A DNA stretch of 48,246 nt, taken from positions 1 through 48,246 of IMG/VR virus record IMGVR_UViG_3300017783_000041. One strand, given 5' to 3'. The notes under the pieces were generated by a model, which saw only the letters and a program-made list of their open reading frames with translations, had not been told where the DNA came from and made no database searches. The DNA comes from a virus. Shown piece by piece: positions 3 through 31,400 of this stretch. The translations under genes were made by a program, and so were the position numbers. The number at the start of each line of letters is the position of its first letter. Position 1 is the first letter of the stretch.

Positions 3-1160
3 CGTAGAGCAGCTTTAATTAGTTTGTTTTCTGCAGGTGACGATGAGATGATCTCGGCTAAGTCTGGTAATTGGTGGGAGACAGATCCACAAAGAGGTAG
101 ATCAAATAATTCTGCTGTTCTAATGAGACATAACGTAACTAAAGAGTTCTTTATGGATTTATGGAAACGTGTAGAGCTATCAGGATCAGGTGAACCTGGT
201 ATATACCTTAATAATGATAAAGACTGGGGTACAAACCCTTGTTGTGAAATAGCATTAAGACCTTTTCAGTTTTGTAACTTATGTGAAGTAAATGCTAGTG
301 ATATTGAATCACAAGAAGATTTAAACAATAGAGTGAAAGCAGCTGCGTTCATAGGAACGTTACAAGCAGGTTACACTGACTTTCATTATTTAAGAGACAT
401 ATGGCGAGAGACAACGGAAAAGGATGCTCTGATAGGGGTTTCAATGACTGGAATCGGGAGTGGAACAGTCCTAGGATACGACATGCAGAAAGCCGCTCAA
501 TTAGTAAAAAGAGAAAACACAAGAGTAGCAAAGGTAATTGGAATTAATCCAGCTGCACGATGTACAACCGTAAAGCCTGCAGGGACGACATCTCTGGCAT
601 TAGGAACATCATCTGGTATTCACGCGTGGCACAATGACCACTATGTCCGTAGAATCAGGGTTGGTAAAAACGAAAGTATATATAAATATTTAGTTGAAAA
701 CCATCCTATGTTAGTTGAAGATGAGTTTTTTAGACCTCACGACACTGCTGTAATTAGTATACCTCAAAAAGCACCTGAAGGTTCTATACTTAGAACTGAA
801 TCACCTTTTCAATTACTTGAACGTATAAAGAAGGTTGCTACAGAATGGGTTGTGCCTGGTCATAGAAAAGGTAGCAACACTCATAACGTATCTGCTACTG
901 TTAGTTTAAAAGCTGAAGAGTGGGAAGATGCAGGAGAGTGGATGTGGAATAACAGAAAATACTATAATGGTTTATCTGTATTACCATTTGATGGTGGAAC
1001 ATATACTCAAGCTCCTTTCGAGGATATTGACGAAGGAACTTATATAAATAAGTTACAACACTTAAAAGATATAAACTTAGAAAATGTACTCGAATCCGAA
1101 GATAACACTGATCTTAGTGGCGAGCTCGCTTGCGCTGGCGGTGCTTGTGAAATTACTTAA
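3..1160 (+). CDS. nrdJ: Class II (adenosylcobalamin-dependent) ribonucleoside-triphosphate reductase, C-terminal half
   Basis: Reduces ribonucleotides to deoxyribonucleotides for phage DNA synthesis. The reading frame is open to the left edge, so the N-terminal half lies outside the window. About 385 codons are seen of a family that is usually near 740. The NPCCEI motif (codons 234-251) holds the thiyl-radical cysteine and the active-site glutamate. A cysteine 11 residues later (in QFCNLCEV) matches the redox partner Cys419 of the Lactobacillus leichmannii enzyme. The tail ends CAGGACEIT, a CxxxxC pair that in the monomeric RTPR type reloads the active site with electrons from thioredoxin. 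Subunit architecture and tail point to the monomeric RTPR type, not class I or III. The gene is on the opposite strand to the late genes and ends just before a bidirectional terminator. Confidence 0.95.
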   Translation, partial: RRAALISLFSAGDDEMISAKSGNWWETDPQRGRSNNSAVLMRHNVTKEFFMDLWKRVELSGSGEPGIYLNNDKDWGTNPCCEIALRPFQFCNLCEVNASDIESQEDLNNRVKAAAFIGTLQAGYTDFHYLRDIWRETTEKDALIGVSMTGIGSGTVLGYDMQKAAQLVKRENTRVAKVIGINPAARCTTVKPAGTTSLALGTSSGIHAWHNDHYVRRIRVGKNESIYKYLVENHPMLVEDEFFRPHDTAVISIPQKAPEGSILRTESPFQLLERIKKVATEWVVPGHRKGSNTHNVSATVSLKAEEWEDAGEWMWNNRKYYNGLSVLPFDGGTYTQAPFEDIDEGTYINKLQHLKDINLENVLESEDNTDLSGELACAGGACEIT

Positions 1161-1689: not shown

Positions 1690-4600
1690 TTAAAATCCAA
1701 ATTTTATTTTATCTTTACCGCTTTTCGTTTTATTTACTTTACCAAAACCAAAATCACTCTTATTATTAGTTTTGTTTTGCTTTTTGTCTTTATCAGGCTT
1801 TATCTGCCACTCTGGCCAACCAGCTAACATAGCTACCGTTTGCCAAGTTTCTGTATCTTCGGCTAATGCTGCTTCAATATTATTTACTTTGTTATAAACT
1901 CTATCAAGAGGTATGTTAGTAGTAGCTGAAAGCACCTTAGCACCAGCTTCATACGCTGGATTATCTAAGCTAAAACCTTTTTCAAATATTTCTTCTCTAC
2001 GTTTCTTACTATCAAATTGATAAGCCGCTTGCCTAACTTTAGATATTTTAGAACTAATAGGTGGAGATATTTGTAATAACTTATAAACAGCATCTACATA
2101 TTCAGGACGCTTTCTATCCGCTCTCTCATATATATCTAACAAGAAGTTTTTAATTACACCAGCTGTAGCTCCAGCAACACCTAAGCCTCTAAGTTGAGAG
2201 TCTAGCATACCATTAGCTATTTTATAGTATCTTTTGTTTTTATCCTTCTCGTGTGCCTCTAACTCTTTAGCTGTCATTTCGTCTTCATCATCTCCAAAAC
2301 CTAAAGCAAATAGTGATTGTTGTAAAGCATTGAATATTATGTTTTGCACAACGCCATAGTATATTATCTTACTTACATGAGATTTAGCATCACCTCTACC
2401 ATTTATTAAATCTTGAGCAGCTCTTTTTTGTAACCTAGCATATTGCATAGGAGTGTTGGCAAAAGCTAATACAACTCTACCTAGATCACTCGACTGTTGA
2501 GCAGATATTTTACTAGGATCTGAAGACTGTTGAGAAGTTTCAGCTATTTGTCTAAATTCAAGCATTGCTTTTTCTTTAGCCTCTGCTTCTGTTAAACCCT
2601 CGTTTTTTATAAGATCATTTATTCTATTACGATAAAATGTAGCACCACCTGAAGCTATAGCAAAACTATCAGCTATTTGAGTAGGTGCAAAACCTTTTTG
2701 TAATATATAATTTATAGCTGCTTTAGCTTTATTCTTACTTGTCGATGCTGCATCTGCTATTTCACTTTCAGATATATTTAATTTTAAACCATTACGTCTA
2801 TCCATTAAATAATCAGAGTTCATAAGATCCATAAAATCTTTCCAGTATTGCTTTTGATTAGCAAATGCTTTACCAGCTTTTATAGGGTTATTAAAACTCC
2901 AGTTAATAAAGTTTATAGAAGATATAGTCTGTAGCACAGCAGATCTTGCGTTTAAGAACATTATAGTACCAATAGAACCATTTACATAATCTAACACTCT
3001 GTTACTTAGTCTATTGCCGCTAAACAATCTATTCTTACCAGACTTCATACGCTTAAGTATGTTTTCCATAGACTCTCTATACTTCTCACCATAAGCAGCT
3101 TCTAACTTATTTAAGTTTTCTTCGCTAAATATAAGATCAGCATTTTCTAAAAATCCAGATTGTTCTAAATATTTTTTACGTTTAACAGTATTTAATACAT
3201 CTATTAAGTCAGTTGTTATTGTACCTGCTAACCAACTTTGTCCAGGCTTAGCGTAGCCATCGCCTTTAGTTAAGTTCATTAATTGATCTGCAAAAGCTTT
3301 TAACAATCCATCTGAATTAACTACATCAATAAGATCTTGTAAATCAGTTTTAGAAAGTCCAGGTGTATCATAACCCATCTTATTAAACAAGTAAACTCTT
3401 ACAGCTTGTTCATTAGTAAAACCTGTATCATTTTGTTTTCTAAGATTTTTAGGCACTTCTAAAGCTTTTTTAAGTGCTTTAAAGTCCTCCATAAGTTGTA
3501 GTCTATCAGTTGATAAGTTTTCTACAGCTCTGGCGTACGGATCAAGTAAGTTTTGCTTAAACCAAGCCATTTGACTATCACCTAACTTACCTTTACTTAA
3601 TAATGGATATATTAATCCCATGAAATCTTCAGCTGAATAAGGTATAAAGAATTTTTTATTACCTTTACCAGCGCCTCTGACTTTAGCTTTAGCTTTTGAG
3701 TAAGTTTTTTCACTTGCTATACCCGTTGTTTGCTCTATTATCTTGTTGAAATCTTCATTAACAGTTTTACTAAACTTAACTTTAGCTTGCTGCACTTTTG
3801 ATTTAACATCTAATTGACTTAAAGCATCTTGAACGGCTTCAACATTTTGATAAGCATCATCTGCAAAGTAAAAATCATTATAACCTTTAGCTGCTTTATC
3901 TATGATCCATTTAGCTTTAGCAGCGCCTGTAGAATTACCTAACCCAGTTATATTTTCTAATGGTATATTTAAACCTACACTATCTAAAAATTCTTTAATA
4001 GCTACTTGAGCTTCAGGTGCTCTAGCTGTTAGTACAAAAACATCTTCAGTTCCTCTAGCTTCTTGTATTTTTTTAGCTATATCTAATAATGGACCTGGCT
4101 TACCACCAGTTACTTTGTTAAACTCTGAAAAGTCAAACACATAACCTTCTTCTAATAATCTAGCTCCATCTTTAGCAAATTCTTCAGCATTTAATTTACC
4201 TTTAATTCCGTCAGGTGTTGTAAATAAAACGTCAGATTTAGTAGTCGCTAACGTGTCGTCAAAGTCAAACACTCTAATCTTTTTAACTGGAGCGCTAGGA
4301 TCACGAGCAATTGCTAAAGCTTCATCAACTGTTTTAGCGTAGCCTATAATATCTTCGTTAGTACTTGACTTACTAAAATTACCATAAGCAGGTTTAATTT
4401 GAGTTTTGTTTACTTCCTTAGCTTTTTGTACGTTTTCATATAAGTTTTTTAAGTTTTTACCTTTTATAGATTTTTTCCAGCTAATTGGTTTGCCATTTTT
4501 AATGGTGGGTGTATAAACAGTCATTTCAAATGGAAACTTACCAATTGAAAAGTTGTTAAAATACCTGCTAAACCTATTAATATATGCTAAAGGTATTGTG

Positions 4601-7600
4601 TCTTTGTATCTTATGTTTATAACGTCATCCATTTGCTCTGGAATAACACTAACAGATGCATCTGCAAACTTCTCTCTTAATTGGCTTTCATTTATTTGAC
4701 CATTAATATATTGAGCCATGTAAATCTTCATAACTCTAACAGGTGGATTGTGCTCAAACCTATAGTCGCTAGGGTTTGTGCTATCGCTAAGTGATATACT
4801 ATCAATAGGGTAAGCAGATCTTAATATAGAAGTCATATCACCAGTAGAAGACATGAAATACATACCTAAGTCATTTTTGCTTATACCTTCTTTTTTACCT
4901 TTATTATTTTTATAAAAGTTTAATACTCTTATTATTTCTTCTTGGTTACCTATAGCATCATTATAACTATCTGTTAAGGTTTTATCACTTAGCTTACCTG
5001 TTTTTAAAAATTCTTCTAAATAAAACTTTGTAGCAGCTTTTGACTGTTTAGCTCTATCAGTTTCTATTTTAACCCCATCGTAGAAAAAACCTTTACCTTT
5101 TTCATAAGTTAAAGCATTAGAATTGTCAAATGGTTTTAGTAAAACGTTTAGTAACTCAACCTTGTTGTTTAAAATACCATACCTAACACTACTACTTCTA
5201 CCACTTGCTTTTCCTTCTATTAATTTCCAAATACCTTTTAAGTTTTTAACCCACTTATGGTTTGGTAAAGAACCTATTTTAGCTGACGCTGCTAATGTTT
5301 CGTAATGTTGTAAAGCCCATTTAAAAAAGTCTAAATCATTATCAAACCTACTTCTATTAAATTTAAATATTTTTATCAAAGCGTTTTTAAAACTTTCTAT
5401 TTGCTTAACATCTCCAAAATTTACACCATCTTTATCTATTCCTAAACTTTCTTGAACGTCTACTCTAGGATCAGTTTGTTCTTCAAAAGTTTTGTATAAA
5501 TACTCGTTTAATTTTTCTTTATTTACGCTTTTTTTATCAAATTGTTTTTGTGGTGAATTATCAACAACTTTTTCAAATTCTTTAATTAAGTTTTCTTTAA
5601 CTTTTGTGTTTTCGTTATTTTTACCAGTAGTTAAAAACTTATCACCATACGTTTCTATAAAAGAAACTTCAATGTCTTGACCAATGTTTATTCTTTCTAT
5701 AAACTCAGAAAGTCCGCCTAAAAAGATAGCTTTATTATCTTCGTTTTTAATATCCCTAAAAGCTTTACCTAGGTTCTCTGATTTAGCAGTTTTAGAAAAA
5801 TAACCTGTTGGCATACCATCTTTAAGTGTTGATAAAGCTTCTTCAGACTTACCATCTAAAATTAATTGTTCTCTAACTTCTTGACTAGATATAACTTGAT
5901 CTAAGTTTCTTACAAAACCTTTTAATATATCACTAACTCCACCCTCGCTAGCTACTACTTTATTAACCCAATTATCTGGATTAGAATTAGTTATACCAAA
6001 AGCTTCTTTTATTTCTGAATCTTTTATATTAGGTTTTTTTATTTGAACTTGTAAACCAGGTTTAGTTTTAGCTCTTGCGCTACGTTTATTATAAAATTTT
6101 TCTAATAATTTTTTATTTACACCTGTTGATTTAAATTCAGAAGTGTAACCTTCTAATAATGATCCTTTAGCTAAGTCGATATTTGAGTTAATAAACTTTT
6201 GTATAGCTAACATTTCATCAGACTTTAAATCTGTATTTTTAGTTATTTTTTTAAATAAAGAGTCTGCTAAAGCTTTATCGTTTCTAGCTACCATGTCTAC
6301 TACTTCACGTAAAGCAAAACCTTTTAATTGTTTAATATTTTTAGCTTTAATATTTTTAGCTTTTGCTCTAACTGATTCTACAACATTATCTATGCTATAC
6401 ACCTTAGGTATTTTCTCTCTAACCTTAACACCTTTTCTTTCAGCCTGTCTTATTTCTTTGTCGGTTCTAGTATCTTCAGCTGGTGTATCATCTGCTTCTA
6501 ATTGTCTAGCTTGTTCAGAGTCTGTGCTAGTTGTAATAGATTTATCACCTATTTGTTCTTCATAGAAAGCAACAGCTCTTTTAGGTATGACGCTATTAAC
6601 ATATGTTGAGAACTCTAAACCCTTACTAGGGTCGTAATTTCTCATCACGCTTTGAAACTCTTTATTTAAAAAACTTATAGCTTCTTCAGATTCTATAGTG
6701 CCTTTTGATTTATCAAACTTCATAGCTCTTAAACCTAAACTATGGTATTGCTCTATAAAATCTGTTATTTTATCAGGATTTATGCTACCTTCTTTATACT
6801 GCTTAGCTAAACTAGTTGCTTCACTTTTACTCATAGCACCTTGAGCTCCTGCATCAATACCTTCTGAAACTATAGACCCAACTTGACCTTCAAAAGTTTG
6901 CTGTTTACCTTCTGATATAGCTTTAGACTGTCTAGCGTATTCTTTAACGAAGTTAAAAGCTTGTTTACCACTAACGAAGCTAGCGTTTTTATAACCGAAA
7001 GGCTTCAAGAAAGTATTTGTTATCATCCTACCTAACTCTTGAAAACCAGTTTCTTCAAAAGCTACTTCATTATTTATTACACCATCTGAAAGTGCTGTAA
7101 ACCACTCTTGACTAGTAGCATCTTCGGAGTTAATGTTATAATTGTTTAATAACCTATCGTTAACGGCTTTTATTTGCTTTTTATTTAATCTACTTTTAAA
7201 ATCTTTTATTAAGCTTTCGCTTTCTTCTAAAGTCTTTCCTTTTAATTGTTTATTTAGTATACCGTGTAGTAACTCGTGAGATGTAACAGGTATCTCTCTT
7301 AATTGCTCCGCGGCGGACTTATTTATATATATGTTGCCGTCTTCGTTTATATAACCAGTACTGTTTAAATCTTCAGTGTTAGTTACACCTAATTTAGATA
7401 AAGTTTTTTTATAAGTGTCACTATCTAAAACATTAAATTCTTTACCAGACTTTTCAGCTTCAGACCTAGCTTCTTCTTCTAGTCTAGAAAAGTTTTTATC
7501 AAAATCATAAACCTCATTAGTAGTTATTTCGCTTATTTGTGAATTTATATCTAATATTTCTTCTTTTTGCTTAGAAACTAAAGACTTATCGTCAGATGCA

Positions 7601-9717
7601 TCGACTTGTTTTTGAAGTCTTTTCTTTTGCTGCAATAATGAAAACACTTGCTTTTCACCATCAGCTGTTAATCTAGTCGATTTTCTTAACTCTCTAAACG
7701 TAGAACCTATTTCCCTAACTTGCCTTATTTGATCATCAACTTCTTTTTGGCTTTTACCACCAGACTCTAGCTCAGTTCTTAATTGTGTAATTTTATTTTC
7801 AATAGTATTTTCATCTGAGAAAAAAGCCCTAGCATTTTTATATTGTTCTTCGTTAAGTTGATTAACTACACCTTGTCTTTTTGCCTGCATAAAAGCATTC
7901 ATTGTACCAAAAGTACCACCAGCTATAGCTCCTACTTTAAAAGCTTGGAACATAGCATCTGGGTCAAAAGCAGTTTGTTCAGCATTGAAATAAGTTTTCT
8001 CCTCGTCGCCAAAAGCTTTTTTAGCCGTATTAAAACCTCTTTTCAAAGCTACTGTAGCTATTTCTTGAGTAACTTCAGTTCCACCCTCCATAAGACCACC
8101 AACACCAACACTAAACACTCCTCTAGCTAATTTGCTTTTTATTTCTTTCTCTAAAAGCTCTTGAACAGTCTTTTGTGTAAGTTTTTTAGTAGCATTTCTT
8201 TTTAATACATTTAATACTAGTTTTTTAGCTAGTGGATTTTTACCAACTATAGAACTAGCGCCAAGTTTCTCTAGTTTAGCTACAGTCCAACCTACAGCGC
8301 TACCAAATGCAACTTTTTGCCAATCGGGAACATCTTCAAAAACTGGATCATCCATCTCCTCTAAAATGCTTCCAGCTTCTTGTAAACCCATTATAGCACC
8401 AAAGGCTTTAGCTCCACCGCCAGGTATCAACAAAGACGATGTAACCATTTGAACTATAGAAGTTGTAACAGCACCAAACGTTGTTGCCTGAAACTCTTGT
8501 TGATACTCATTAGATATATCAGAACCTATTTCATCCTCTAGTGAAATACTATTTCTAATATTTTTTTCAATTTCATTTTTTAACCTAGCTGCTTTAGCTT
8601 CGTCTTCATTAATTAAACCAGTGTATTTTTTAGCGTCAACTACAGCATCTTGTAAAACGTTTGTACCGTCAGTTAAAAATCTATTTATCTTGTCAGGAAC
8701 ACTTAATGCTGTGTTATACCAAGACTCAACCCAAGTACCTCTATCGGCTAGTATTGACGTTTGCTCTGCTTGTATTAACTTGATCTGATCAGAAGCTTTA
8801 GATACATCTCTATCGTATCTAATTTTTAAACCTTCTCTTTCAACTCTCAATGATCTTTGCTTGTCAAGTAATTCTTTTTTACGCTCAGCGGCTTGATCTT
8901 CAGTTATTAAACCTTCATTAATATTCTTAGAATATTCGTCAACCTCTTTTTTAAATTCAGATTCTTTAGTTTCTAAATCGTTTATCTCTGTATTTATATT
9001 GTTTAGATTATAGTTAACCTTCTCGTTAGCTTCTTTAATTAACTTTTCATCGTATAAATTTACAAATGTATTTGGTTTTCCAACAGCGTTAACCATATCG
9101 CTTACCTCTACATTTTTATAATCTTTTTTATTTTCAAAGATATATTTTTTTATCTTACTAGTTTCTTTTTTTGACCCAGAATAAGTAAATGTATCTAAAT
9201 CTACCACTATACCATCCTTATCTTCATCTGTGTAAACTTTAACAGCGTCACCTAATCCAGTTTCTTCAAACCTTATACCAAAACCAGAGTAAAGTCTTCT
9301 TAGCTTAGGAACAGCTGACTCCTCTTCTTCGTTTCTTATTATAGAGTCAAGTTCTTCCAACTTGGGTTTATTTGTTATTTCCTGTATCTCTCTTACTCTT
9401 GATATTCTTTTTTCAAAATCATTAGCCCTTTCTTCCTCTAGCTTATCTTTTCTTAAAACAATTGTTTTTTTATTGTCTATTTCCTCTAACTCCTTGTTAA
9501 GTTTATCTAACCTCTCATCATCGCTTAAAGTAACTTCTTCTTCCTCTTCTTCTTTATTTAAACTAGCTAGTTCTTCCTCTGTTAACTTAAAAGGTTCATC
9601 CTCTTTTAACTCGTCTTCAGAAAACTCAAAAACATCTGTTAAGTTTAATAAACCTTCTACACTGTCATTGTTTTCTTGCGGTAATTCTAAATCTGTTAAA
9701 TTTAAAGTATCAGGCAT
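1690..9717 (-). CDS. Giant polyvalent internal virion / DNA-ejection protein
   Basis: 2675 residues, the largest gene here. Its place after nozzle and two smaller ejection proteins matches T7 gp16-type proteins that enter the host with the DNA. Residues 1-120 are acidic and E/K/L-rich. Coiled coil runs at about 220-330 and 640-760. Hydrophobic stretches lie near 405-450 and 590-612. HELLH (814-818) with a downstream Glu at 871 looks like a zincin site. Residues 1011-1060 resemble sigma-70 region 2 (YDPSKGLEFSTY). Residues 1813-1985 form a HAD domain: DFDDT (D1818, D1820), T1897, K1934/K1936 and D1953-D1954. The rest is mostly helical, with further hydrophobic segments near 2244-2275 and 2450-2475. 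This domain mixture is typical of phage polyvalent proteins. Ejection role is inferred from position and size; it is not shown that every domain is active. Confidence 0.85.
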   Translation of the reverse strand: MPDTLNLTDLELPQENNDSVEGLLNLTDVFEFSEDELKEDEPFKLTEEELASLNKEEEEEEVTLSDDERLDKLNKELEEIDNKKTIVLRKDKLEEERANDFEKRISRVREIQEITNKPKLEELDSIIRNEEEESAVPKLRRLYSGFGIRFEETGLGDAVKVYTDEDKDGIVVDLDTFTYSGSKKETSKIKKYIFENKKDYKNVEVSDMVNAVGKPNTFVNLYDEKLIKEANEKVNYNLNNINTEINDLETKESEFKKEVDEYSKNINEGLITEDQAAERKKELLDKQRSLRVEREGLKIRYDRDVSKASDQIKLIQAEQTSILADRGTWVESWYNTALSVPDKINRFLTDGTNVLQDAVVDAKKYTGLINEDEAKAARLKNEIEKNIRNSISLEDEIGSDISNEYQQEFQATTFGAVTTSIVQMVTSSLLIPGGGAKAFGAIMGLQEAGSILEEMDDPVFEDVPDWQKVAFGSAVGWTVAKLEKLGASSIVGKNPLAKKLVLNVLKRNATKKLTQKTVQELLEKEIKSKLARGVFSVGVGGLMEGGTEVTQEIATVALKRGFNTAKKAFGDEEKTYFNAEQTAFDPDAMFQAFKVGAIAGGTFGTMNAFMQAKRQGVVNQLNEEQYKNARAFFSDENTIENKITQLRTELESGGKSQKEVDDQIRQVREIGSTFRELRKSTRLTADGEKQVFSLLQQKKRLQKQVDASDDKSLVSKQKEEILDINSQISEITTNEVYDFDKNFSRLEEEARSEAEKSGKEFNVLDSDTYKKTLSKLGVTNTEDLNSTGYINEDGNIYINKSAAEQLREIPVTSHELLHGILNKQLKGKTLEESESLIKDFKSRLNKKQIKAVNDRLLNNYNINSEDATSQEWFTALSDGVINNEVAFEETGFQELGRMITNTFLKPFGYKNASFVSGKQAFNFVKEYARQSKAISEGKQQTFEGQVGSIVSEGIDAGAQGAMSKSEATSLAKQYKEGSINPDKITDFIEQYHSLGLRAMKFDKSKGTIESEEAISFLNKEFQSVMRNYDPSKGLEFSTYVNSVIPKRAVAFYEEQIGDKSITTSTDSEQARQLEADDTPAEDTRTDKEIRQAERKGVKVREKIPKVYSIDNVVESVRAKAKNIKAKNIKQLKGFALREVVDMVARNDKALADSLFKKITKNTDLKSDEMLAIQKFINSNIDLAKGSLLEGYTSEFKSTGVNKKLLEKFYNKRSARAKTKPGLQVQIKKPNIKDSEIKEAFGITNSNPDNWVNKVVASEGGVSDILKGFVRNLDQVISSQEVREQLILDGKSEEALSTLKDGMPTGYFSKTAKSENLGKAFRDIKNEDNKAIFLGGLSEFIERINIGQDIEVSFIETYGDKFLTTGKNNENTKVKENLIKEFEKVVDNSPQKQFDKKSVNKEKLNEYLYKTFEEQTDPRVDVQESLGIDKDGVNFGDVKQIESFKNALIKIFKFNRSRFDNDLDFFKWALQHYETLAASAKIGSLPNHKWVKNLKGIWKLIEGKASGRSSSVRYGILNNKVELLNVLLKPFDNSNALTYEKGKGFFYDGVKIETDRAKQSKAATKFYLEEFLKTGKLSDKTLTDSYNDAIGNQEEIIRVLNFYKNNKGKKEGISKNDLGMYFMSSTGDMTSILRSAYPIDSISLSDSTNPSDYRFEHNPPVRVMKIYMAQYINGQINESQLREKFADASVSVIPEQMDDVINIRYKDTIPLAYINRFSRYFNNFSIGKFPFEMTVYTPTIKNGKPISWKKSIKGKNLKNLYENVQKAKEVNKTQIKPAYGNFSKSSTNEDIIGYAKTVDEALAIARDPSAPVKKIRVFDFDDTLATTKSDVLFTTPDGIKGKLNAEEFAKDGARLLEEGYVFDFSEFNKVTGGKPGPLLDIAKKIQEARGTEDVFVLTARAPEAQVAIKEFLDSVGLNIPLENITGLGNSTGAAKAKWIIDKAAKGYNDFYFADDAYQNVEAVQDALSQLDVKSKVQQAKVKFSKTVNEDFNKIIEQTTGIASEKTYSKAKAKVRGAGKGNKKFFIPYSAEDFMGLIYPLLSKGKLGDSQMAWFKQNLLDPYARAVENLSTDRLQLMEDFKALKKALEVPKNLRKQNDTGFTNEQAVRVYLFNKMGYDTPGLSKTDLQDLIDVVNSDGLLKAFADQLMNLTKGDGYAKPGQSWLAGTITTDLIDVLNTVKRKKYLEQSGFLENADLIFSEENLNKLEAAYGEKYRESMENILKRMKSGKNRLFSGNRLSNRVLDYVNGSIGTIMFLNARSAVLQTISSINFINWSFNNPIKAGKAFANQKQYWKDFMDLMNSDYLMDRRNGLKLNISESEIADAASTSKNKAKAAINYILQKGFAPTQIADSFAIASGGATFYRNRINDLIKNEGLTEAEAKEKAMLEFRQIAETSQQSSDPSKISAQQSSDLGRVVLAFANTPMQYARLQKRAAQDLINGRGDAKSHVSKIIYYGVVQNIIFNALQQSLFALGFGDDEDEMTAKELEAHEKDKNKRYYKIANGMLDSQLRGLGVAGATAGVIKNFLLDIYERADRKRPEYVDAVYKLLQISPPISSKISKVRQAAYQFDSKKRREEIFEKGFSLDNPAYEAGAKVLSATTNIPLDRVYNKVNNIEAALAEDTETWQTVAMLAGWPEWQIKPDKDKKQNKTNNKSDFGFGKVNKTKSGKDKIKFGF

Positions 9718-9723
9718 ATAATA

Positions 9724-11169
9724 TTAGTTTACTTCTTTTATCTTTGTGTTAGCCGCTGTATTACCAGAAACTTTATTGTACTTTTTATTATTAAATATAA
9801 ATGTAGTACCATTGTCTAAGGAGGCTATATCATTCTTTGACTCCACTTCTATAACGTTTGAAGTTTCTTTGTCACCCTGTATTAAGTCTCTTTCAAAATC
9901 ATCCATCTTATCCACATCGTAGGTTACAGGAGCACCTGTTGGTTTCTTTGTCCTCATGTCTATTATAATAGGTTGAAAACTTAATTTACCATCATCTTTT
10001 CTTTCTACTTGGAAATCATATATTTGATACCTAGTCTCTCCAATTTTAATTTCCTTATTTTTAAAATCTTTAACAAGCGCTGCTCTAGCTTTAGTGTCTA
10101 TGTTTTCAGGCTTAACGTTATTTAAAGCAGCATCTTTACTATCTTCTTGTATTTGTTCTATTAAAGTAAAATCAATTTTTTCACCTGGAGTTTTAGTTGC
10201 TTTTCCTTTTTCTTTATCAGCCGTTGCAACTGCTTGTAATATTCTATCTTCACCAGGAAACCTTTGTTTTACTAAATGATCTATCATGTTTTGTCTAGTA
10301 GCATCTTTTTGAGCATCACTACCATCATAAGCATCTTGACTATCTTTTACAAAAGTTTGAAAAGTAGATTCATTTATTATTGGGTCTATTAATATACCTT
10401 CCTCTAGCCTTCTTCTATACTCAGCTTTGGCATTAGTATAGTCTGTATATTTTTCTTTACTAATCTTTTTGCCATCAGCGACGTCTTTGGTTATGGTTTC
10501 TACTAACTTTAAGTTGTCTAATCCCTTAGCTGCATTTACATCAGCAGCGTTTAATTCTTTGCTGTAATCGTCAGTGTAGTTAACTAAGTCAAAACCTTGC
10601 TCTTTACTTCTAACATAAGCAGATCCATTTATTAAGTCGTTGCCTTGATTATCTGCTATTATAATATTACCATCTCTTAATATAAAATTTAGGTTTTTAC
10701 CACCAGTTGAGTCTATGTCTTTTACAATGTTGACAAATTTAGGATCGTTAGATCTTAAGAAGTTTGTACCAGCATCACCTTGCATACTTTTATCATTGTA
10801 TGTTTTTGCTTCTTCGTTTAGTGAACCAACTATTTTTGGTAAAGATTCTAAATAGCTCTGCATTTGTCTTTGTTTTTTAATGAACTCAGACCTATCACCT
10901 TCAAAAGAAGCTATATCTAGCTTGTATAATTCGTCAACTTCTCTCTCTATCTCGGCTTGTAAACCTTCAAGAGGGGTTTTATCATCTACACCTTTAGTTT
11001 TTTCTAAAGCAGCTCTATTATCTTCTTCTCTTTGTGCTGCTGCGTTTTCAAAGTCTTTAACTAGTTTTATTCTATTTGAAATAACTTCGGTAGCTCCAGT
11101 TACAGCCGCTAACAACGTTGCACTTGACGTGTCTACTGTTCTACCACTTGATGGATCTCTATATGACAT
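9724..11169 (-). CDS. Probable internal virion (ejection) protein
   Basis: 481 residues, mostly charged and helical, with a coiled-coil stretch near residues 40-125. No catalytic motif was recognised. It lies between a small membrane-active-looking ejection protein and the giant polyvalent protein, with gaps of 3 and 6 nt. This matches the second member of the three-protein ejection set of T7-like phages (gp14, gp15, gp16), but sequence alone does not prove homology. It starts at an ATG directly after the previous stop codon. Confidence 0.6.
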   Translation of the reverse strand: MSYRDPSSGRTVDTSSATLLAAVTGATEVISNRIKLVKDFENAAAQREEDNRAALEKTKGVDDKTPLEGLQAEIEREVDELYKLDIASFEGDRSEFIKKQRQMQSYLESLPKIVGSLNEEAKTYNDKSMQGDAGTNFLRSNDPKFVNIVKDIDSTGGKNLNFILRDGNIIIADNQGNDLINGSAYVRSKEQGFDLVNYTDDYSKELNAADVNAAKGLDNLKLVETITKDVADGKKISKEKYTDYTNAKAEYRRRLEEGILIDPIINESTFQTFVKDSQDAYDGSDAQKDATRQNMIDHLVKQRFPGEDRILQAVATADKEKGKATKTPGEKIDFTLIEQIQEDSKDAALNNVKPENIDTKARAALVKDFKNKEIKIGETRYQIYDFQVERKDDGKLSFQPIIIDMRTKKPTGAPVTYDVDKMDDFERDLIQGDKETSNVIEVESKNDIASLDNGTTFIFNNKKYNKVSGNTAANTKIKEVN

Positions 11170-11172
11170 TTA

Positions 11173-11769
11173 TTACGGTTTTATAAATTTTGAAGCTGCA
11201 CCAGCAATACCTACTAAAGAACCTATAGCTGCAGTGCTATCTGCTCTTTTTTGATTTCCTTCTAAAGTTGCTAGATTACTATATCTATCTAGTTGTGCTT
11301 GATCTCTTTCTTCTTGTGCATCAAACATTGCTTTTTGACCTTCTGCTTTAGCCTCTTGTACAGCAGCGTCTCCTTTTGCTTTTAAAGTTTCATTTGCTTG
11401 CTCTTGTTTTTCAATGCCAGCTGATACTTCTCTTTTTGAGTCAGAAGCTGCTTGAGCTAAAGCTGTAGCACCACCTGCAGAAGCACCTGTAGCTCTTAGT
11501 GTATCTAAAGTATTAGCTAACGCTTTGTCAGTTTCTTCAGCTTTAATTTCAGCTGCTTGAGTAGCAACAGATAAGTTTGCATATGGATTTCTAATATTAG
11601 CATATGGGTTAGTTATTGCTTGCCTATTTTTCTCAAGCTCACTAACCTTATCCATGTACATTTTTTCTCTTTTTTTAGCCTTGCTGCTTTTACTAGCACC
11701 CATTATACCAGGTATAACCGCAGCTGCTAAACCCGCTATTTTAAGACCCATTTCTAATTCTGAACTCAT
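11173..11769 (-). CDS. Probable internal virion protein, gp14-like
   Basis: 198 residues from the chosen start. A hydrophobic N-terminal segment (GLKIAGLAAAVIPGIMGA) is followed by a long A/E/K/Q-rich coiled coil and a second small hydrophobic segment near the C-terminus. This two-ended pattern fits small ejection proteins that insert in the host envelope. The frame also has an ATG at 11799, which would overlap the nozzle gene by 20 nt. The ATG at 11769 was preferred because it has the usual A-rich leader and follows the upstream stop codon by 10 nt. Confidence 0.6.
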   Translation of the reverse strand: MSSELEMGLKIAGLAAAVIPGIMGASKSSKAKKREKMYMDKVSELEKNRQAITNPYANIRNPYANLSVATQAAEIKAEETDKALANTLDTLRATGASAGGATALAQAASDSKREVSAGIEKQEQANETLKAKGDAAVQEAKAEGQKAMFDAQEERDQAQLDRYSNLATLEGNQKRADSTAAIGSLVGIAGAASKFIKP

Positions 11770-11779
11770 TTCTTTTATT

Positions 11780-14700
11780 TTAATATGATGAAACAACAAA
11801 GTCAGTTGCTACAGAAAATAACTCTTTAAAGTTACCAACATCTGTAGTATTATCAACTTGTATTTTGATTGTTGTAAAATAACCTTTTACACCTGATACA
11901 TTCTCACCATTATTATCTATAATAACTTGACCAGGTCTAGTAGTATTATTACTTCTTATATTCGCTACATATCTATTTTCTTTTCTGTTAAAACCAACTC
12001 TCTTTTTAACACCATCTTCAACGTATACTCCTTCGTCGTAGCTTTTTATAGGTTTTATAGTGTCTAAGTATTCAACACCCGAGTCAACGCCTTCAGCATC
12101 TGAAAACATTTCTACAGCTTCCCAACCATTACTACCCTCGTAACTAATTGTTTTAAAGTTTTTAGTAATACTTGGTTGTGAATTAAATATAAAAGTTATG
12201 TTCATATCTCCTTGCTCTCCATAAAACTCACCTCTATTACTAACATCTGAGTAATGCTTGTATATAGTATCACTCTTAGTTGTAAAGAAATTACCTTTAA
12301 AACTAAACATTTCGTCAGGTATGAAACTTAAGAAAGTTGTCCAACCTAGTATTGTTTCATCAAAGGTCAACGTTTTAGATGATTTTGGAGTAATATCACT
12401 AGATGTTGTAAAATAAGTAAACTCATATTCTTTAACTCTAACGTCTTTAATTAGAGATATTGTATACATATCATTATTCTCGTCCCAAGCTCCTCTAACA
12501 CTGTCTTTAGCCCATCCTTCAAACTCAAAAGTACCACCTTGATAAAAATTAGAGTTATTAGTGCTAACCTGTACAGCGGTTGAGTAAGGGTTGTTTGTAT
12601 CTATATTTTCTATAAAACCATAAAAGAAATTACCTAAAGGATCTGGATTACTTATGTTTGTAACTTTCATACCAGCTTTTATTAAGTCCCTAACGTCTTG
12701 AGTAGCGTTAGCATTATTACTTATTATTAAAGTGTTTGTTTGAGAATATCCTTGAGCAAGCGCTCTAAGTTTTATGTTGTAACCTTCTGTTTCTATATTT
12801 CTTAATTCATCTCTAAAGAAATCAGACATTCCGTACTGTGATATTTCAGTTATACCATCGTTTGATATTCTAAGTACAGCGTTTCTGTTTTTATCAGAAC
12901 AATATCTTCTTCTACCAAAAAACGCGAAGCTTTCTGGATTTGTACTAATACCATATTGCCCTACGTAAGGTTGTATTTGACCTATTACTAGATTTGAGGA
13001 AGTGACAGTGCCACCACCTTCTGCCGCGTAAATAGCATCTTTGTCTATTAAAGCTCTACTTATTTTGTTTTCTTGAAATATAGTCAGATTAGTATCTTCG
13101 GCATGTAGTTTCTGTATTGAGCCATAAGCTGGTTCCGCTGTTTTAGTTATGTCTTCACCTATTGAAAAAACGTTAGTTTCGTTTATACCTGTTCTAGAAT
13201 TGTACACACCGGAATATATTAAAGAGCTAAAACGATGTGTTGACTTGTTTTGATCATCATTTTGTAAATAAGCTCTAACACCATAATCGGTAGGTGTGTT
13301 ATTATAACCACCCCTAATTCTAGCTTCCTCTATATACCAAGAATCATAAGGTAAACATTGTGTCCAGTATTGAGCAGCTTCTCCACCAGGTTTAATATAC
13401 CCAGGGTTATAATCTGGAAACATAAATAACGAGTCATATATTGGAAAATCATGCCATAGGTCAGCTTTTATTTTACCATTTGAATCATAGTTATTCCAGT
13501 TGTAATAAAACATGCTCCAAAAAGCTGGCAATCTATCAGACCATAGGTTAGGACCACCACTATAGCTTCTATACTCTCTACTTAAGTTGCTAGTAACGAC
13601 CATTGGAAATGTAAATCTATTAGGGTATTTAAACGTTGTAGTTTCACTAAGTACTCCTTCATCGTCAACCCTATCTCTCTGTATATAACCAGGAAATGGT
13701 TCGTATTGTTTCCACGTTAAACTATGTTTTATTATGTTTCTAACAGTAAAAGAATTAAAGTACTTTAACTCTAGCTCCACATACGGTGTTTGACCATTGT
13801 ATATTTCTAAACTGGTTTCTAAGTCGTTATTTAAATCGCTAATAACACCTGTGGTAGTGGTTTCCCAAAAAATATCTAAATCAGATTTAACAGGTGTAGT
13901 TTCCAAAACCCCAAACCTAACCCACCTAGCATTATTAGGTGTAGCCGCGCCTTCAAAGCCATCATCATCTTCTACAGGATAATAACTAGTTGAAGATGTT
14001 TTATCCCACCCAGCTCCTGGATCAGTGCTGTAATAACTAGAAACAGTACCTATTAATAAAGTTGAAGACTTTGTTAAAAAATTACCACCATTATAAAAAT
14101 CCCATTTAGGAATAGGATCTAAAACAAAAAAAGTGTTTGTTGCAGAAGCTTCTTCTACATCTATCAAGTCACTTGGTTCAATATTGAAAGTGTTAAACTC
14201 TCTTATTGTCTCTACTTTGTCAGGTGTTATCTCTCTATCTATTTCAAGAAAGTACTGCATACTTAAGTTCCAATTGTTTGATGAAACCCTAGTGTATAAA
14301 CCAACGTCACTTCCAGCAAAGTTTCTATCATTTGGACCAACACTACTTAGTGACCTAGGTAGTTTGTTTATATTATCACCACTTATCTCTATTTGATATC
14401 TTGGGCTACTTGTTTGAAAATAAAAGTCTACTAAATCTAAAGTTTTTGGTGTTGAAACATCACCATCTGAATTAGTACTATAATTATATCCTTTAGCGTA
14501 TGTTGTAGCACTCTGTATTCCAGGAACATACAAATTGTAGTATTCTTGTTCTTGTTGTTTTACAACAACTTTATAACTATACCAACCCAATGGATTATCT
14601 AAAGAGTATAAGTTTTCACTTTGTATCTTGTCAAGCATGTGTATTCTAAGAGAATCACCAAAATGATTACCAGCGAACCATTGATCATTCCACGCTTCTG

Positions 14701-16780
14701 AAGTTCTAGGTTTGTAAGGTACGTAAACCGTAGATGCTTTATCTCCGTTTGCGATATCTTGTATATCATCTGGAGCTACTATAACGTCAGACTGTCTTCC
14801 ATACCTATCGCATAATATAAAACCTATTTGATATGTTCTATTGTTTTTAACGTTGTGGGTTGGATATTGTTGAGCTGCAAAACTTGGATATCTATTCTTA
14901 GTCGATGTAACGTCTTCTACATTATCTATTCTTTTTCTACCAAAATTAGCTGTGTATTTTATGTTTTTAGGATAGTCATTTTTATCTATAAAATTACCAA
15001 ATATTATTCTATTGCCAATAGCTTCTTGCGTCTTAGCTCTTACTGGAACTTGATCATAAACTCTAGTCATTTCTGACTCTGGAAGAGTTTTAGTGGGCTC
15101 AGTACATTTATATTCGTATTCTATGAATTTACCACTTGGGTCTAAATCTTCAATTTTCAAAGTATCTATAGATTTAATAGACGAATCTTCAGATGATTTG
15201 TATAATATTTCAATCTCTTTTACATTGAAAGAACCAATTAATTGACTATTACTGTAGCTCAAGCCAGTAGATTCAACAACAGGGTTATCTATATACAATG
15301 TAACAGAATCAACATTGTTTTCCATTATAGGTAGATCTAAAGATTTTTTAATCTTGTTAATATCTTCACCCATTATATGGTTGTGTTGCTTTGGTGTGAA
15401 AACATGCTGGGTAAAAGGAGCTATAAGTGAGTATTCATCATCTATAAACTTGTATCTATAACTTAACCTAATAAATTTATCTTTTAAAAACTCTTTAGTT
15501 CCTGAGTAAGAAGGATCATAATCAGGATTTGGATAATGAAAAAACAACTTACATTTTTCAGCCGTTGGTTCATTTCCTCTTCTAAAACCTAATGTAGAGT
15601 TTTGAATTCTATCTAAGCTATTGTGTAGTGATTGAAGATCACTATTTATACTTCCTCCGTTAGATTCAGCCCATATTTGAAAACGCCATAATGTAACGCC
15701 ACTTATAGTTGAAGAACCCTGTAAAGAACCATTATTGATGCTTCCTTCAACTACTTTAGCACTTACCAATCTACAGTTGTTGTTTTTGCCAATAGACTTA
15801 TTATCTTGTGTTCTACTTCCATAAAAAGCAACTAATTGATTATTAGCTGGGTTTTTACCGGGTTGAACTCTATAGTCACCATTAGGGTTGTAGGTTGTAT
15901 CCGCGGGTAACCACTGCCTTTGAAGTGTATCTTTAACATTAGTATCTTGACCAGCTATATCCCAGCCACTACCTGAAAAAGTATTAGGTTCTGCATACGT
16001 GTAACAGAAGAAGTAGTGACCGCTAGTAGCTGCATACTCCTTGTATTTAATATGGCTTCCAGCAACTATGTCAGTTGTTTGTTGAGGAAACATTATAACA
16101 GGTGAATTAGTATGGTCAAGCCACCTGTCGGTTTTATTCTTCATTGATGGAACAGTCTCTATAGCATTGGTCTTTTTTTCGTATAACCTAATAGGATTCC
16201 AAGGGTAATATTTTGCTAAAGATATTTGATCTTCTCTTGAGTAGGTATTTTTACCTTCTAAAGCTTTATTTATATTTATTTTTCTAGGCTGGTTTCTATT
16301 GTCAGTCCAGAATAGCAAATCTTCTATAACGTTAACACCACAAATGGGATGTGTTTTAGAGAAGTTTAAAAAATTTCCTTCAACAAGTATAACACCTCTT
16401 TCTGATACAACTTCTTTAGTAAAATCGATCATTACTATAAAAGAGTTTTGAGGAGTATAGTAATTTTCACCAAAAAAATAACTTAAATTATCAGTGCTAC
16501 TGTCTTCAAAGCTTGTAAAAAATAAAAAAGCCCTATCTCTACTAGTGTCGATAAAACTTCCTATAACTTCTTGATGTGTTATATCATATGATTGTATTAA
16601 GCTAAGTGGATTATTAAAAATTTCATTACCTTTAATATTTTCTAAAGCACCTACATCAGCACCTTCTGATTTGCTTATAGATACGTTTTCAGCGTTTCTA
16701 TATTCACCATTAGGTATAATTCTAGCGTCCAAGTCTTTGTTCATCTTGGACTTTAAAAAAGTATTTTTAATTTGTGGCAT
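11780..16780 (-). CDS. Giant tail nozzle / tail tubular protein B-like structural protein
   Basis: 1666 residues, rich in aromatic residues and beta strands. The N-terminus (DARIIPNGEYRNAENVSIS, then a phrase on IKGNEIFNN) is the signature I associate with phage nozzle or stabilisation proteins of short-tailed phages, whose beta-propeller core closes the tail tube. It is much longer than T7 gp12 (about 790 residues), so extra domains are likely, perhaps accessory beta domains in the C-terminal half. It follows the adaptor gene by 2 nt and precedes the ejection genes, the expected position for this role. Confidence 0.75.
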   Translation of the reverse strand: MPQIKNTFLKSKMNKDLDARIIPNGEYRNAENVSISKSEGADVGALENIKGNEIFNNPLSLIQSYDITHQEVIGSFIDTSRDRAFLFFTSFEDSSTDNLSYFFGENYYTPQNSFIVMIDFTKEVVSERGVILVEGNFLNFSKTHPICGVNVIEDLLFWTDNRNQPRKININKALEGKNTYSREDQISLAKYYPWNPIRLYEKKTNAIETVPSMKNKTDRWLDHTNSPVIMFPQQTTDIVAGSHIKYKEYAATSGHYFFCYTYAEPNTFSGSGWDIAGQDTNVKDTLQRQWLPADTTYNPNGDYRVQPGKNPANNQLVAFYGSRTQDNKSIGKNNNCRLVSAKVVEGSINNGSLQGSSTISGVTLWRFQIWAESNGGSINSDLQSLHNSLDRIQNSTLGFRRGNEPTAEKCKLFFHYPNPDYDPSYSGTKEFLKDKFIRLSYRYKFIDDEYSLIAPFTQHVFTPKQHNHIMGEDINKIKKSLDLPIMENNVDSVTLYIDNPVVESTGLSYSNSQLIGSFNVKEIEILYKSSEDSSIKSIDTLKIEDLDPSGKFIEYEYKCTEPTKTLPESEMTRVYDQVPVRAKTQEAIGNRIIFGNFIDKNDYPKNIKYTANFGRKRIDNVEDVTSTKNRYPSFAAQQYPTHNVKNNRTYQIGFILCDRYGRQSDVIVAPDDIQDIANGDKASTVYVPYKPRTSEAWNDQWFAGNHFGDSLRIHMLDKIQSENLYSLDNPLGWYSYKVVVKQQEQEYYNLYVPGIQSATTYAKGYNYSTNSDGDVSTPKTLDLVDFYFQTSSPRYQIEISGDNINKLPRSLSSVGPNDRNFAGSDVGLYTRVSSNNWNLSMQYFLEIDREITPDKVETIREFNTFNIEPSDLIDVEEASATNTFFVLDPIPKWDFYNGGNFLTKSSTLLIGTVSSYYSTDPGAGWDKTSSTSYYPVEDDDGFEGAATPNNARWVRFGVLETTPVKSDLDIFWETTTTGVISDLNNDLETSLEIYNGQTPYVELELKYFNSFTVRNIIKHSLTWKQYEPFPGYIQRDRVDDEGVLSETTTFKYPNRFTFPMVVTSNLSREYRSYSGGPNLWSDRLPAFWSMFYYNWNNYDSNGKIKADLWHDFPIYDSLFMFPDYNPGYIKPGGEAAQYWTQCLPYDSWYIEEARIRGGYNNTPTDYGVRAYLQNDDQNKSTHRFSSLIYSGVYNSRTGINETNVFSIGEDITKTAEPAYGSIQKLHAEDTNLTIFQENKISRALIDKDAIYAAEGGGTVTSSNLVIGQIQPYVGQYGISTNPESFAFFGRRRYCSDKNRNAVLRISNDGITEISQYGMSDFFRDELRNIETEGYNIKLRALAQGYSQTNTLIISNNANATQDVRDLIKAGMKVTNISNPDPLGNFFYGFIENIDTNNPYSTAVQVSTNNSNFYQGGTFEFEGWAKDSVRGAWDENNDMYTISLIKDVRVKEYEFTYFTTSSDITPKSSKTLTFDETILGWTTFLSFIPDEMFSFKGNFFTTKSDTIYKHYSDVSNRGEFYGEQGDMNITFIFNSQPSITKNFKTISYEGSNGWEAVEMFSDAEGVDSGVEYLDTIKPIKSYDEGVYVEDGVKKRVGFNRKENRYVANIRSNNTTRPGQVIIDNNGENVSGVKGYFTTIKIQVDNTTDVGNFKELFSVATDFVVSSY

Positions 16781-28449: not shown

Positions 28450-31400
28450 TTAAGGTACATTTGTTGATCTGCCTGAATTTGCTGGGTTAGTTACACCGTC
28501 TGCGTAATCAGCCATATTAATACTGTATGAGTTGTTGATACTGTCTTTCATATCACCTTTTAAATCTGCTATTGTTGAGTTTGATCCAACACCATTAGCT
28601 GTTGAACCAGGCGCGTCACCTACTACGTCGTGTTGTTCTGTGTTTTGACCATTTCCGTCGTTTCCATTTACAATTTCCCTAACCACTAGATCAGTTCCAC
28701 CAAAATACGTATATTGTTGATCTAAAGGCCACCAAAAATACGGTTGTCCAGGCGTAAAGCTGTTATTTAAATCTTGAGTAACACCGTTATTATATAAATC
28801 TAAAGCTTCTTCATTGTTAATAGCTCTATCGTAAATAGCTATATTTGAAAGATAACCATCAAAATAAAATGAATTATTATGACCTTTACCAATACTGTTA
28901 TACGCTCCCGTGTTATAACTACCAGTTAAAAAACTATCGTAAGAAACACTATCAATGTAAACTGTATAATTATTGTTAGAGTTTACTACAATAACGTTGT
29001 GCCAATTACCATCATTTAGTCCTGACCCTATATTGTATTTCCAGGTGTTAGTACTTACAATAAAACCAATCTTATCAGCGGAGTTACCTTTAGTAATTGC
29101 AAAGTTTTTTGTAAAACTAGCTATTTGAAAAAGTCCTGAAGCCGTAGCTGTATCAGTTGTTTTAAACCATAAAGAAACACTAAAATCTGCTCCAAAAATA
29201 TCTAACGAAGGGTCTGTACCTATGTCAAAGTGATTAGTACCGTCAAATTGAATACTATAATTACTAAAAGGTAATTTTCTAGTTAAATTACTTTGTACTA
29301 AAGCTGTTCCAGGTAGAGTATCGCTTTCACCGTTAACTGTAGAAACGTTATCATCAACTAAGTTAGATTGTACCATGTTTAAACCTGTAGCTTCTTTTAC
29401 ACTTACAAAAGTATCTACAAATTGTATTCCAGTGTCTTGGTATCTGTTGTTGTAATCTAAGTCACCTATTTTATCAACAGTCCCAGCTCCAAATTCCTCC
29501 AAAGTAAACCAATGATTTGGTGATTGAGATATTGAAACTTCAGGGCTTCCATTGTTATACAAAGCTGTAACAGCTGTTTGATCTATTTCAGAACTCCAAT
29601 ATGCAAAATTAGAAATAGTACCATCAAAATAACTACCATTTACATCATTCCTTCCGCCAAAAGATGAATTATTGTAGCTTTGTCCATAGTCTATGGTTAA
29701 TGAACTAGGAGGTGTTACTGTTTTAACTAAATCTCCATTAATATAAAACTTACTATCTGTTCCGTTCCAAACAACCACAATATGTGACCACTTTCCATAT
29801 GGCGTATAATCAGGAGAAGCATCTACAACTGTGTTTTTAAAATAACTCCAGTTACCATTTTTAGCAGTACCTCCTCCATCTACTGCTGTAGTGTTTTTGT
29901 CACCTATTTGAAACTGTAAGTCGTTGTTGATATATCCTAACATAACACCTTGCCAAGAGCTTCCTTTACAAGCAAATATGTCACCATTAGTTGCTACTCC
30001 TGGTCTCGGTTTAATCCAAACTGACATTGAAAACACTTGATTCTCATATGCCGGTTGTGAATCATCGTCTCTCAACATACCAGCATCAGCTCCAGAATAA
30101 AAAGCACTTTTCCAGCTAGTAGGATATATTTGGTTTTCAAAATTCCATTTTGTACCATCCCAAGCGCTTGTTATTTTATCAAAGTTAAACAAAGCTTTTG
30201 AACTACTAGGTTGAATAGAATTTGAAATTAATGGAACACCGTTGTTATAAACCGACAAAGCTTCAGAATCGCTTAACGCGGTGTTTAACCAAGCTTGAAC
30301 ATTACTGACATTAACACCGCTTACCCCGGGAAAAGCCCCAACGCTAAACGCGCTCATTGGAACCCCACTACCACCACCAGCAGCACCATAAATTACTCTA
30401 TTTCCTACTGCATTACTCATTTTTAAACCATCTAAGAACAAGTTACAATCATCTTTATTATCAGCCGTAGGTATTGTCATTAAACAATGATGCCATTCTC
30501 CATCTTGAAGATCTACTCCTTGATTTACGTTTTCCCATTTAATATAATTATTCCCACCCGATATAAACCAAAAGTTACCTTGATAGATTCTTAAAGTCCA
30601 ATTAGTACTTGAATTTAACCCTATAACACCTTTGTATCCATCTTTTGTAATTCTCGCCCAAAATGAAATTGTGCAAACCTGCATTTTGTTAACACCTGTT
30701 AGGGTAAAAAAGTTTTCATCAACAATAACCTTCTCACTACCTAGAAATCCAAAACTCTGTGGATATGCAGATCTATTATCTGGTATGTCCCAGTGATCGG
30801 CTGAAAATGTTGCCGGTGGTTGATTTTCAGCTCCTCCATACCAACCGTATTTCGTAGTATTACTAAGAAAGTCTTCGTTATAACTAGAGCTTCCACCACT
30901 AATATTTACATCATTTATTTTTAGAAAGGAGTCAGTCGCTCCCCTGTCAACACCTTTTATTCTAATTTTTATATTATTAGAAACTGTAAGATTTCCAGTG
31001 CTAGGTATGCTAAAACTAACTGGGCTAAAGCCTCCCGGTCCGTTTGTTTGAGTATGCCAATTAACCCAACTTCCATCATCTATATTGTATTCTAATATAG
31101 CTTGACTACCATAGTATGGATCTTCATAAGATCCTCCAGTTGAAGATAAAACTATGTTACTACCACTTGTATATATAGTTGGTGAATTCCATTGAAAATA
31201 ATCGCTACCTACTGTTGTTCCAGAGTTATTATCGTGCCATATTAAGCCGCCACTGTCATAAGGACCTGAACCTGAATTGTTAGCTACGTAACAGCCATCT
31301 ATAGATTGTGAAAAATTAGGACTACCTACTTTCTCTATGCTCCAATTTGTTGGATTACCCGGTGTTAAAACAGCTGATTGATTTAGTTTGTACCAACCTT

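Follow-up and report, generated by a model that had tools for sequence, protein, structure and literature searches.

A giant phage protein, conserved at its carrier end and swappable at its payload end, is a candidate polyvalent ejection protein

We analysed a 48,246-base virus fragment (IMG/VR record IMGVR_UViG_3300017783_000041; its whole length is referred to as the window) that encodes, on the minus strand at 1690..9717, a giant multi-module protein of 2,675 residues. Comparison of this protein, hereafter the giant, with relatives found in a protein scan and a profile scan suggests that it is a polyvalent ejection protein in which a conserved carrier end is joined to a swappable payload end, a reading to which we assign a probability of about 0.6. 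The open reading frame (ORF) runs unbroken from ATG to stop, and it holds separable zincin, sigma-like and HAD units, in agreement with an original prediction that protease-like, sigma-like and phosphatase-like modules lie in a single chain. That prediction had also read the chain as a multi-enzyme takeover package, which would fit the class of phage polyvalent proteins as the relevant passages of Iyer et al. (2017; PMC5512222) describe it. The giant most likely falls in this known class; on sequence grounds, what is unusual is the presence of a HAD phosphatase and a sigma-like unit in a changeable set of modules.

A conserved carrier end and a changeable N terminus

A scan with the giant protein returned 27 relatives, and a scan with a profile of the core alignment returned at least 546 confirmed stretches, of which the best 80 were kept. 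The loci from both scans (L002–L110) gave 102 distinct core-bearing ORFs. Requiring a start within the locus, a length of at least 2,200 residues and the HAD motif left 94 of them, with eight fragments or split frames dropped; identical sequences alone were removed, so that near-identical versions remain and the 94 relatives are not independent. Searched as a whole, the giant had no match above the cut-off in Pfam, a single match below 0.01 in PHROGs (phrog_415, E = 0.0017) and no relative detected by tblastn in 50,697 phage records.

The last ~890 residues of the giant were 41–67% identical to 22 relatives. This end includes a conserved helical carrier core at residues ~2000–2651 (1765..3720, minus strand; 41–67% identity over A1). 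For residues 434–1294, identity to 20 relatives was 12–21%, and the sequences often could not be aligned. Two relatives illustrate the pattern: the core of L032 is 85% identical to that of the giant, yet the two proteins align solely from residue 1617 onward, whereas L047, which is more distant (67% in the core), aligns from residue 614. Such a pattern is the expected outcome of module exchange by recombination. Together, the alignments point to a stable carrier end, consisting of the C-terminal helical core and the HAD and common to all relatives, and a swappable N-terminal two thirds.

The fold of the core connects it to polyvalent proteins. In the viral structure library BFVD, 61 matches had E ≤0.001; the top four were direct relatives (30–45% identical), and beyond these the TM-scores by query length were modest (0.14 to 0.44). 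Among the 50 matches listed were proteins annotated as PolyVal ADP-ribosyltransferase, ART-PolyVal-like, Large polyvalent protein-associated domain and MuF C-terminal, as well as a 'structural protein' of Tenacibaculum phage Gundel_1 and of Flavobacterium phage elemoC_14-1A. No PDB sequence matched the core profile.

In three relatives the giant gene is split into two or three frames (L023:7925-16236, L028:8108-14920 and L022:2077-12181). We considered whether L022 reflects a gene naturally split between zincin and sigma-like unit and rejected this idea, as its two frames abut where the unsplit L021 is continuous; one frameshift, whether natural or introduced during assembly, is the likelier cause. 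In L019 the HAD and core occur twice: the additional copy (L019:17840-21385, minus strand) is encoded at the contig end on the other strand and has an extra insertion between HAD and core. It could be an assembly artefact or a second phage.

A zincin-like metallopeptidase in the changeable part

The protease-like module spans residues ~760–885 (7063..7440, minus strand). An alignment of 21 sequences, cut around HExxH and 12–21% identical to the window protein there (mean column identity 18%), had only four invariant columns: H814, E815 and H818 of the catalytic motif HELLH (residues 814–818; 7264..7278, minus strand), and E871 (7105..7107, minus strand), the presumed third zinc ligand. Because this alignment had been cut around the motif, we repeated the analysis with 18 whole N-terminal halves that were cut by the position of the HAD alone, irrespective of HExxH. 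Here invariance was confined to M1 and the H, E, H and E of the zincin. E871 has a counterpart in these 18 other sequences and is at least 90% conserved in 37. Exactly one HExxH was present in 91 of 94 full-length relatives, compared with 0.0056 expected per protein from composition. One exception, L081, has an HExxxH form, which Iyer et al. describe for some polyvalent metallopeptidases (PMC5512222). The two others, L077 and L088, have neither HExxH nor HExxxH, and no replacement was identified in them.

Fold and profile evidence for this module was mixed. In the structural model, strands are followed by the HExxH helix and a later helix bearing E871, the same order as given for polyvalent metallopeptidases in the passages on them in PMC5512222. 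The commonest Pfam match, to Peptidase_M78, came from 9 of 37 members, at E = 7.5e-4 for the best of them and E = 0.09 for the window protein itself. A PDB profile search with the metallopeptidase returned no significant zincin. In VIA, with a second model, no zincin was among the 50 matches listed; sigma factors and long-helix proteins take up this list, which made it hardly a test of the zincin fold.

The zincin most plausibly processes the giant chain itself. The precedents in section 8 of PMC5512222 point both ways: the P1 protein DdrB, on which we base the analogy, is processed before packaging, and the virion RNA polymerase (vRNAP) of N4, a counter-example that weighs against our reading, is packaged uncut with its metallopeptidase. 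The same section deems it possible for the polyvalent class that the peptidase is instead an effector that cuts host proteins. For the giant we regard such an effector role as unlikely, as nearly every relative has the metallopeptidase, and its position is constant while the payload next to it changes, an arrangement that would fit self-processing better than a host-specific target.

A HAD phosphatase, probably of the polynucleotide-phosphatase type

The phosphatase-like module could be sharpened to a HAD phosphatase, probably of the polynucleotide-phosphatase type, at residues 1810–1973 (3799..4290, minus strand). The HAD motif set is complete (D1818/D1820/T1822, T1897, K1934 and D1953/D1954), each position being invariant or at least 90% conserved, and the HAD fold was predicted with good confidence; in L018, L021 and L022, DFDET replaces DFDDT. 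In VIA, Pnkp1 came first (Z 11.1 over 122 residues, root-mean-square deviation (rmsd) 2.6), followed by T4 polynucleotide kinase/phosphatase (PNKP; Z 10.3), and Nir2 (Z 10.1) was tied within 1 with these PNKP-type matches. The HAD region also matched phrog_415, polynucleotide kinase (E = 2.3e-5), and Pfam DUF2608 above the cut-off.

Five of the 102 ORFs (L019, L020, L082, L083 and L016) contain a P-loop. In four, a kinase- or zeta-toxin-like domain is inserted within the HAD, with the P-loop 34 residues past the first HAD motif (L019:8352-9068, L020:9314-10036, L082:10103-10825 and L083); in L016, a kinase-like P-loop domain follows the zincin instead. All four of those scanned against PHROGs (L019, L016, L020 and L082) matched the polynucleotide kinase family phrog_505 (E = 1.6e-13 to 2.9e-8), and they matched the uncharacterised family phrog_12810 better. 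Pfam names the kinase-like domain AAA_33 or Zeta_toxin. The position of the insert at a HAD motif had suggested an intein, which we rejected because the insert is a P-loop kinase. The pairing of kinase and phosphatase is the architecture of end-healing enzymes such as T4 PNKP. For this reason we read the HAD module as having a predicted end-healing activity; as an alternative, the kinase in the relatives may have a zeta-toxin-like role.

These two enzymatic modules bear on the view that the giant is a structural ejection or core protein that is packaged and ejected, yet stays in the envelope and carries relict domains, with HExxH used solely for virion maturation and the other modules as scaffolding. 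Most of the chain is predicted to be helical, as such a protein might be, and the DdrB and N4 precedents described above are also compatible with it. However, conservation is far stronger at the catalytic residues of the zincin and the HAD than around them, and some relatives have added kinase domains. We give the structural explanation about one chance in four, less than we give to an ejected polyvalent protein.

A sigma-70 region-2-like unit in about half of the relatives

Between the zincin and the HAD lies a helical unit resembling sigma-70 region 2 (residues ~979–1060; 6538..6783, minus strand). Residues 985–1060 contain RNYDPSKGLEFSTYVNSVIPKR, which we take to resemble sigma region 2. 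In VIA, with the second model, pro-sigmaK was matched over 68 residues at Z 7.5 and rmsd 2.0, and numerous sigma factors aligned over model residues ~340–420 (residues ~979–1059 of the giant). In a Foldseek search of the PDB with the sigma-like model, the top three places went to sigma factors, each at E above 0.1 and led by RPSH, presumably sigma-H; for both models every E-value was above 0.001. With the A5 profile, a sigma factor was the first PDB match (E = 0.016) and sigma factors made up three of seven matches; with the broader A6 profile they made up 11 of 14 matches up to E 10, many of them RpoS (best E = 0.0071). A PDB search with the sigma-like stretch as a single sequence returned antibodies and other chance matches.

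In four rounds of searching with a profile built from 25 seed sequences, we detected the unit in 46 of 94 relatives, each time between the zincin and the HAD, and found zero matches in reversed sequences at E 0.1. The unit is thus, by sequence comparison, a real recurrent domain, a result for which the reversed-sequence control is not itself proof of sigma ancestry. Comparisons between sigma-like subgroups by hhalign were strong for two pairs (99.4% and 91.6%), reached 82.9% for a third and were weak for two others (6 and 14%). Matches to Sigma70_r4_2 in one relative at E = 0.088 and in another at E = 0.01 were not significant, and region 2 alone was seen.

Several results count against a sigma origin. 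In the same VIA list, unrelated long-helix proteins reach Z 7.1; model confidence at the unit is only ~43–66 by the predicted local distance difference test (pLDDT); the narrow A7 subgroup profile had three PDB matches, none of them a sigma factor; Pfam searches list no match to Sigma70_r2 for single members and gave no sigma family for the sigma-like stretch of the giant; and 48 of 94 relatives have no sigma-like match. The sigma-like module named in the original prediction therefore stands as a domain, while its sigma ancestry is weaker, given Z 7.5 against 7.1 and the absence of sigma factors from the A7 matches. On balance, we consider it somewhat probable that residues ~979–1060 are a sigma region 2. 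That the unit contacts RNA polymerase we regard, taken by itself, as unlikely.

The giant is encoded last in a conserved cassette behind a muzzle gene

The nozzle and ejection-gene context noted in the original prediction was borne out. Directly upstream of the giant, on the same strand, lie a 481-residue protein in the gp15-like or cargo position (9724..11169, minus strand), a 208-residue protein in the position of a gp14-like channel protein (11173..11799, minus strand) and a crassvirus-type muzzle protein, or tail nozzle (11780..16780, minus strand; Pfam crAss_MUZ_C, E = 2.1e-10). In 95 of 96 loci, an ORF of 356–752 residues directly precedes the giant, the remaining locus being the frame-split L022; the sequence of the 481-residue protein is not conserved, with a match in 2 of 96 loci. 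Where more than 2.5 kb of upstream sequence was available (87 loci), a homologue of the 208-residue protein was found upstream on the same strand in 86 and a muzzle homologue in 77. The gap from the giant to the next ORF was −48 to 24 bases (96 loci), and the kept gene order is muzzle, ~208 residues, ~360–750 residues, giant.

This arrangement is relevant to the idea that the giant is a late product which remains in the cell that makes it, perhaps as an assembly factor. The virion location of the giant in the window phage is deduced from context and class, which leaves some room for such a role. By contrast, the position in the cassette, the core fold held in common with an annotated structural protein and the annotations of cultured relatives speak for a virion protein, and we consider an assembly factor improbable.

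The hydrophobic segments placed at both ends of the chain by the original prediction were recovered only marginally. A glycine-rich hydrophobic stretch at residues 413–445 (8383..8481, minus strand; Kyte–Doolittle 1.40 and 1.13 over 19 residues) would be marginal as a membrane span and includes the highest 19-residue mean in the giant (1.40, residues 413–431), but it lies 400 residues in from the N terminus rather than at the end. Near the C terminus, residues 2456–2474 (2296..2352, minus strand) and 2509–2527 (2137..2193, minus strand) are weakly hydrophobic (1.16 each).

MW202828, a complete environmental podovirus, has a terminase 64.7% identical to the one encoded in the window; for Flavobacterium elemo phages the identity is ~45%. 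Judging by these identities and the crassvirus-type C-terminal domain of the muzzle, the window phage is a relative of Elemovirus and Pervagoviridae phages, which share the muzzle with Crassvirales. Its host is likely to belong to the Bacteroidota, because the terminase and muzzle matches are phages of Flavobacterium, Cellulophaga, Tenacibaculum and Maribacter. Elsewhere, the window encodes a probable fibre or adhesin of 1,424 residues with five concanavalin-like (Laminin_G_3) stretches (28450-32724, minus strand), a phage GroEL (38698-40245, minus strand), which is also annotated in phi38:1 and MW202828, and the C-terminal part of a ribonucleotide reductase (3-1160, plus strand), truncated by the window end; the virion genes lie on the other strand.

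Comparison with known systems

Like the polyvalent proteins described in PMC5512222, the giant is a very long chain of several unrelated modules in a late-gene neighbourhood, carries a zincin metallopeptidase with HExxH and a downstream Glu, and has a core with fold matches to PolyVal- and LPD-annotated proteins. Unlike them, as far as those descriptions go, it has a HAD phosphatase and a sigma-like unit, and it has no significant match to an LPD family of Pfam. The words sigma, haloacid, phosphatase, crAss and Cellulophaga occur zero times in the main text of PMC5512222. In the titles and abstract openings of the open-licence literature, and in passages of PMC5512222 and PMC7824862, we found no report of an ejected or polyvalent protein with a sigma-like part.

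Three relatives have giants in the same genomic slot: phi38:1 gp101, elemoA_7-9A gp21 and the MW202828 giant. The elemo gp21 and MW202828 proteins also carry HExxH, and the elemoC_14-1A protein shares the core fold. A profile of the N-terminal part matched elemo gp21 with 74.6% probability in hhalign, at the metallopeptidase; with the core profile, no sequence homology was detected to the giants of these three cultured or annotated relatives. Both phi38:1 gp101 and elemoA_7-9A gp21 are annotated as structural. Set against our reading of the giant are the facts that phi38:1 gp101 is shorter and lacks HExxH, that the structural labels of the phi38:1 and elemo proteins are annotations and that Pfam LPD families reach no significance in the core or in the N-terminal halves. 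The 2026 mSystems paper on phi38:1 (PMC13288928) covers, in its relevant part, methylated virion proteins only, among which gp101 is not named, and is neutral on its presence in virions. The MW202828 giant (L031:741-12320) has 3,859 residues and two HExxH motifs (residues 1615 and 2500). The record of phi38:1 gp101 (L030:27423-32498) notes similarity to 'phi18:1_gp101', a note that is doubtful because phi18:1 is described as a 39.2 kb phage (PMC11946311).

In size and order, the cassette resembles T7 gp14–gp15–gp16. It also resembles the ejection genes of the Schitoviridae phages N4 and DEV, in which a giant third protein, the vRNAP (gp50 in N4), is ejected with two smaller channel proteins (PMC12633501), and the N4 vRNAP also has an HEXXH metallopeptidase (PMC5512222). 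Those proteins contain an RNA polymerase domain, whereas the giant contains a sigma-2-like unit and a HAD phosphatase. In phicrAss001, the proteins encoded after the muzzle gp44 (gp45, gp46, gp47, gp49 and gp50) are cargo proteins that were found in virions by mass spectrometry and are expected to be ejected (PMC10172136). The giant is likewise encoded behind a muzzle; it is likened to these proteins by gene position, not by the sequence of gp45–gp50, and it is one protein as opposed to three large RNA polymerase-associated proteins in phicrAss001. The HAD fold is held in common with T4 PNKP and bacterial Pnkp1, and five relatives have a kinase-like partner. Unlike in those enzymes, the HAD is buried in a giant chain, the kinase lies inside the HAD in four relatives and the window protein has no kinase.

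Since virion RNA polymerases are encoded at this locus in Crassvirales, we considered whether the giant is one and judge this very improbable. Its DFDDT motif belongs to the HAD fold, two DxDxD strings (residues 164 and 1459) are not placed in a polymerase fold and the core fold matches polyvalent proteins. No polymerase match was found in the library and fold searches, which were made without models of residues 1–639 and 1295–1763 and without an RNA polymerase profile; no gene of MW202828 or phi38:1 is annotated as RNA polymerase, again with no search by such a profile.

Discussion

We propose that three genes behind the muzzle gene form an ejection cassette, of which the giant is the third and largest product. 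Part of the core would probably serve packaging or passage through a membrane, and the N-terminal two thirds would be a swappable payload that always includes the metallopeptidase. The chain would be packaged as one piece, threaded through the tail after the channel proteins and ahead of or together with the DNA, and refolded in the cytoplasm or at or within the inner membrane of the host; we infer packaging and ejection from the gene context and the polyvalent class. The zincin would then most likely cut the chain into working pieces. The predicted substrates of the HAD would be RNA or DNA ends, from which it would strip terminal phosphates and thereby counter the cleavage of tRNA or incoming DNA by host nucleases. 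For the sigma-2-like unit, the most likely role would be contact with DNA or the host RNA polymerase, so as to start transcription early and help to pull the genome in.

A further, speculative possibility, which we hold to be rather unlikely as a whole, is that the ejected sigma-2-like module recruits host RNA polymerase at the ejectosome while the ejected end-healing phosphatase, in some relatives together with a kinase, mends RNA or DNA that host defences have cut. If this were true, a borrowed polymerase would do what N4 and crAss phages do with a polymerase that they bring, and one swappable polyprotein would bring in the means both to start transcription and to repair damage before the reading of phage genes begins. 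Concrete, assayable predictions follow from the sigma-like and end-healing modules, and the family offers several hundred natural versions as a test bed for delivery, self-processing and early counter-defence. These proteins may thus bear on the question of how phages that lack a virion RNA polymerase begin to transcribe their genes and get through their first minutes in the cell.
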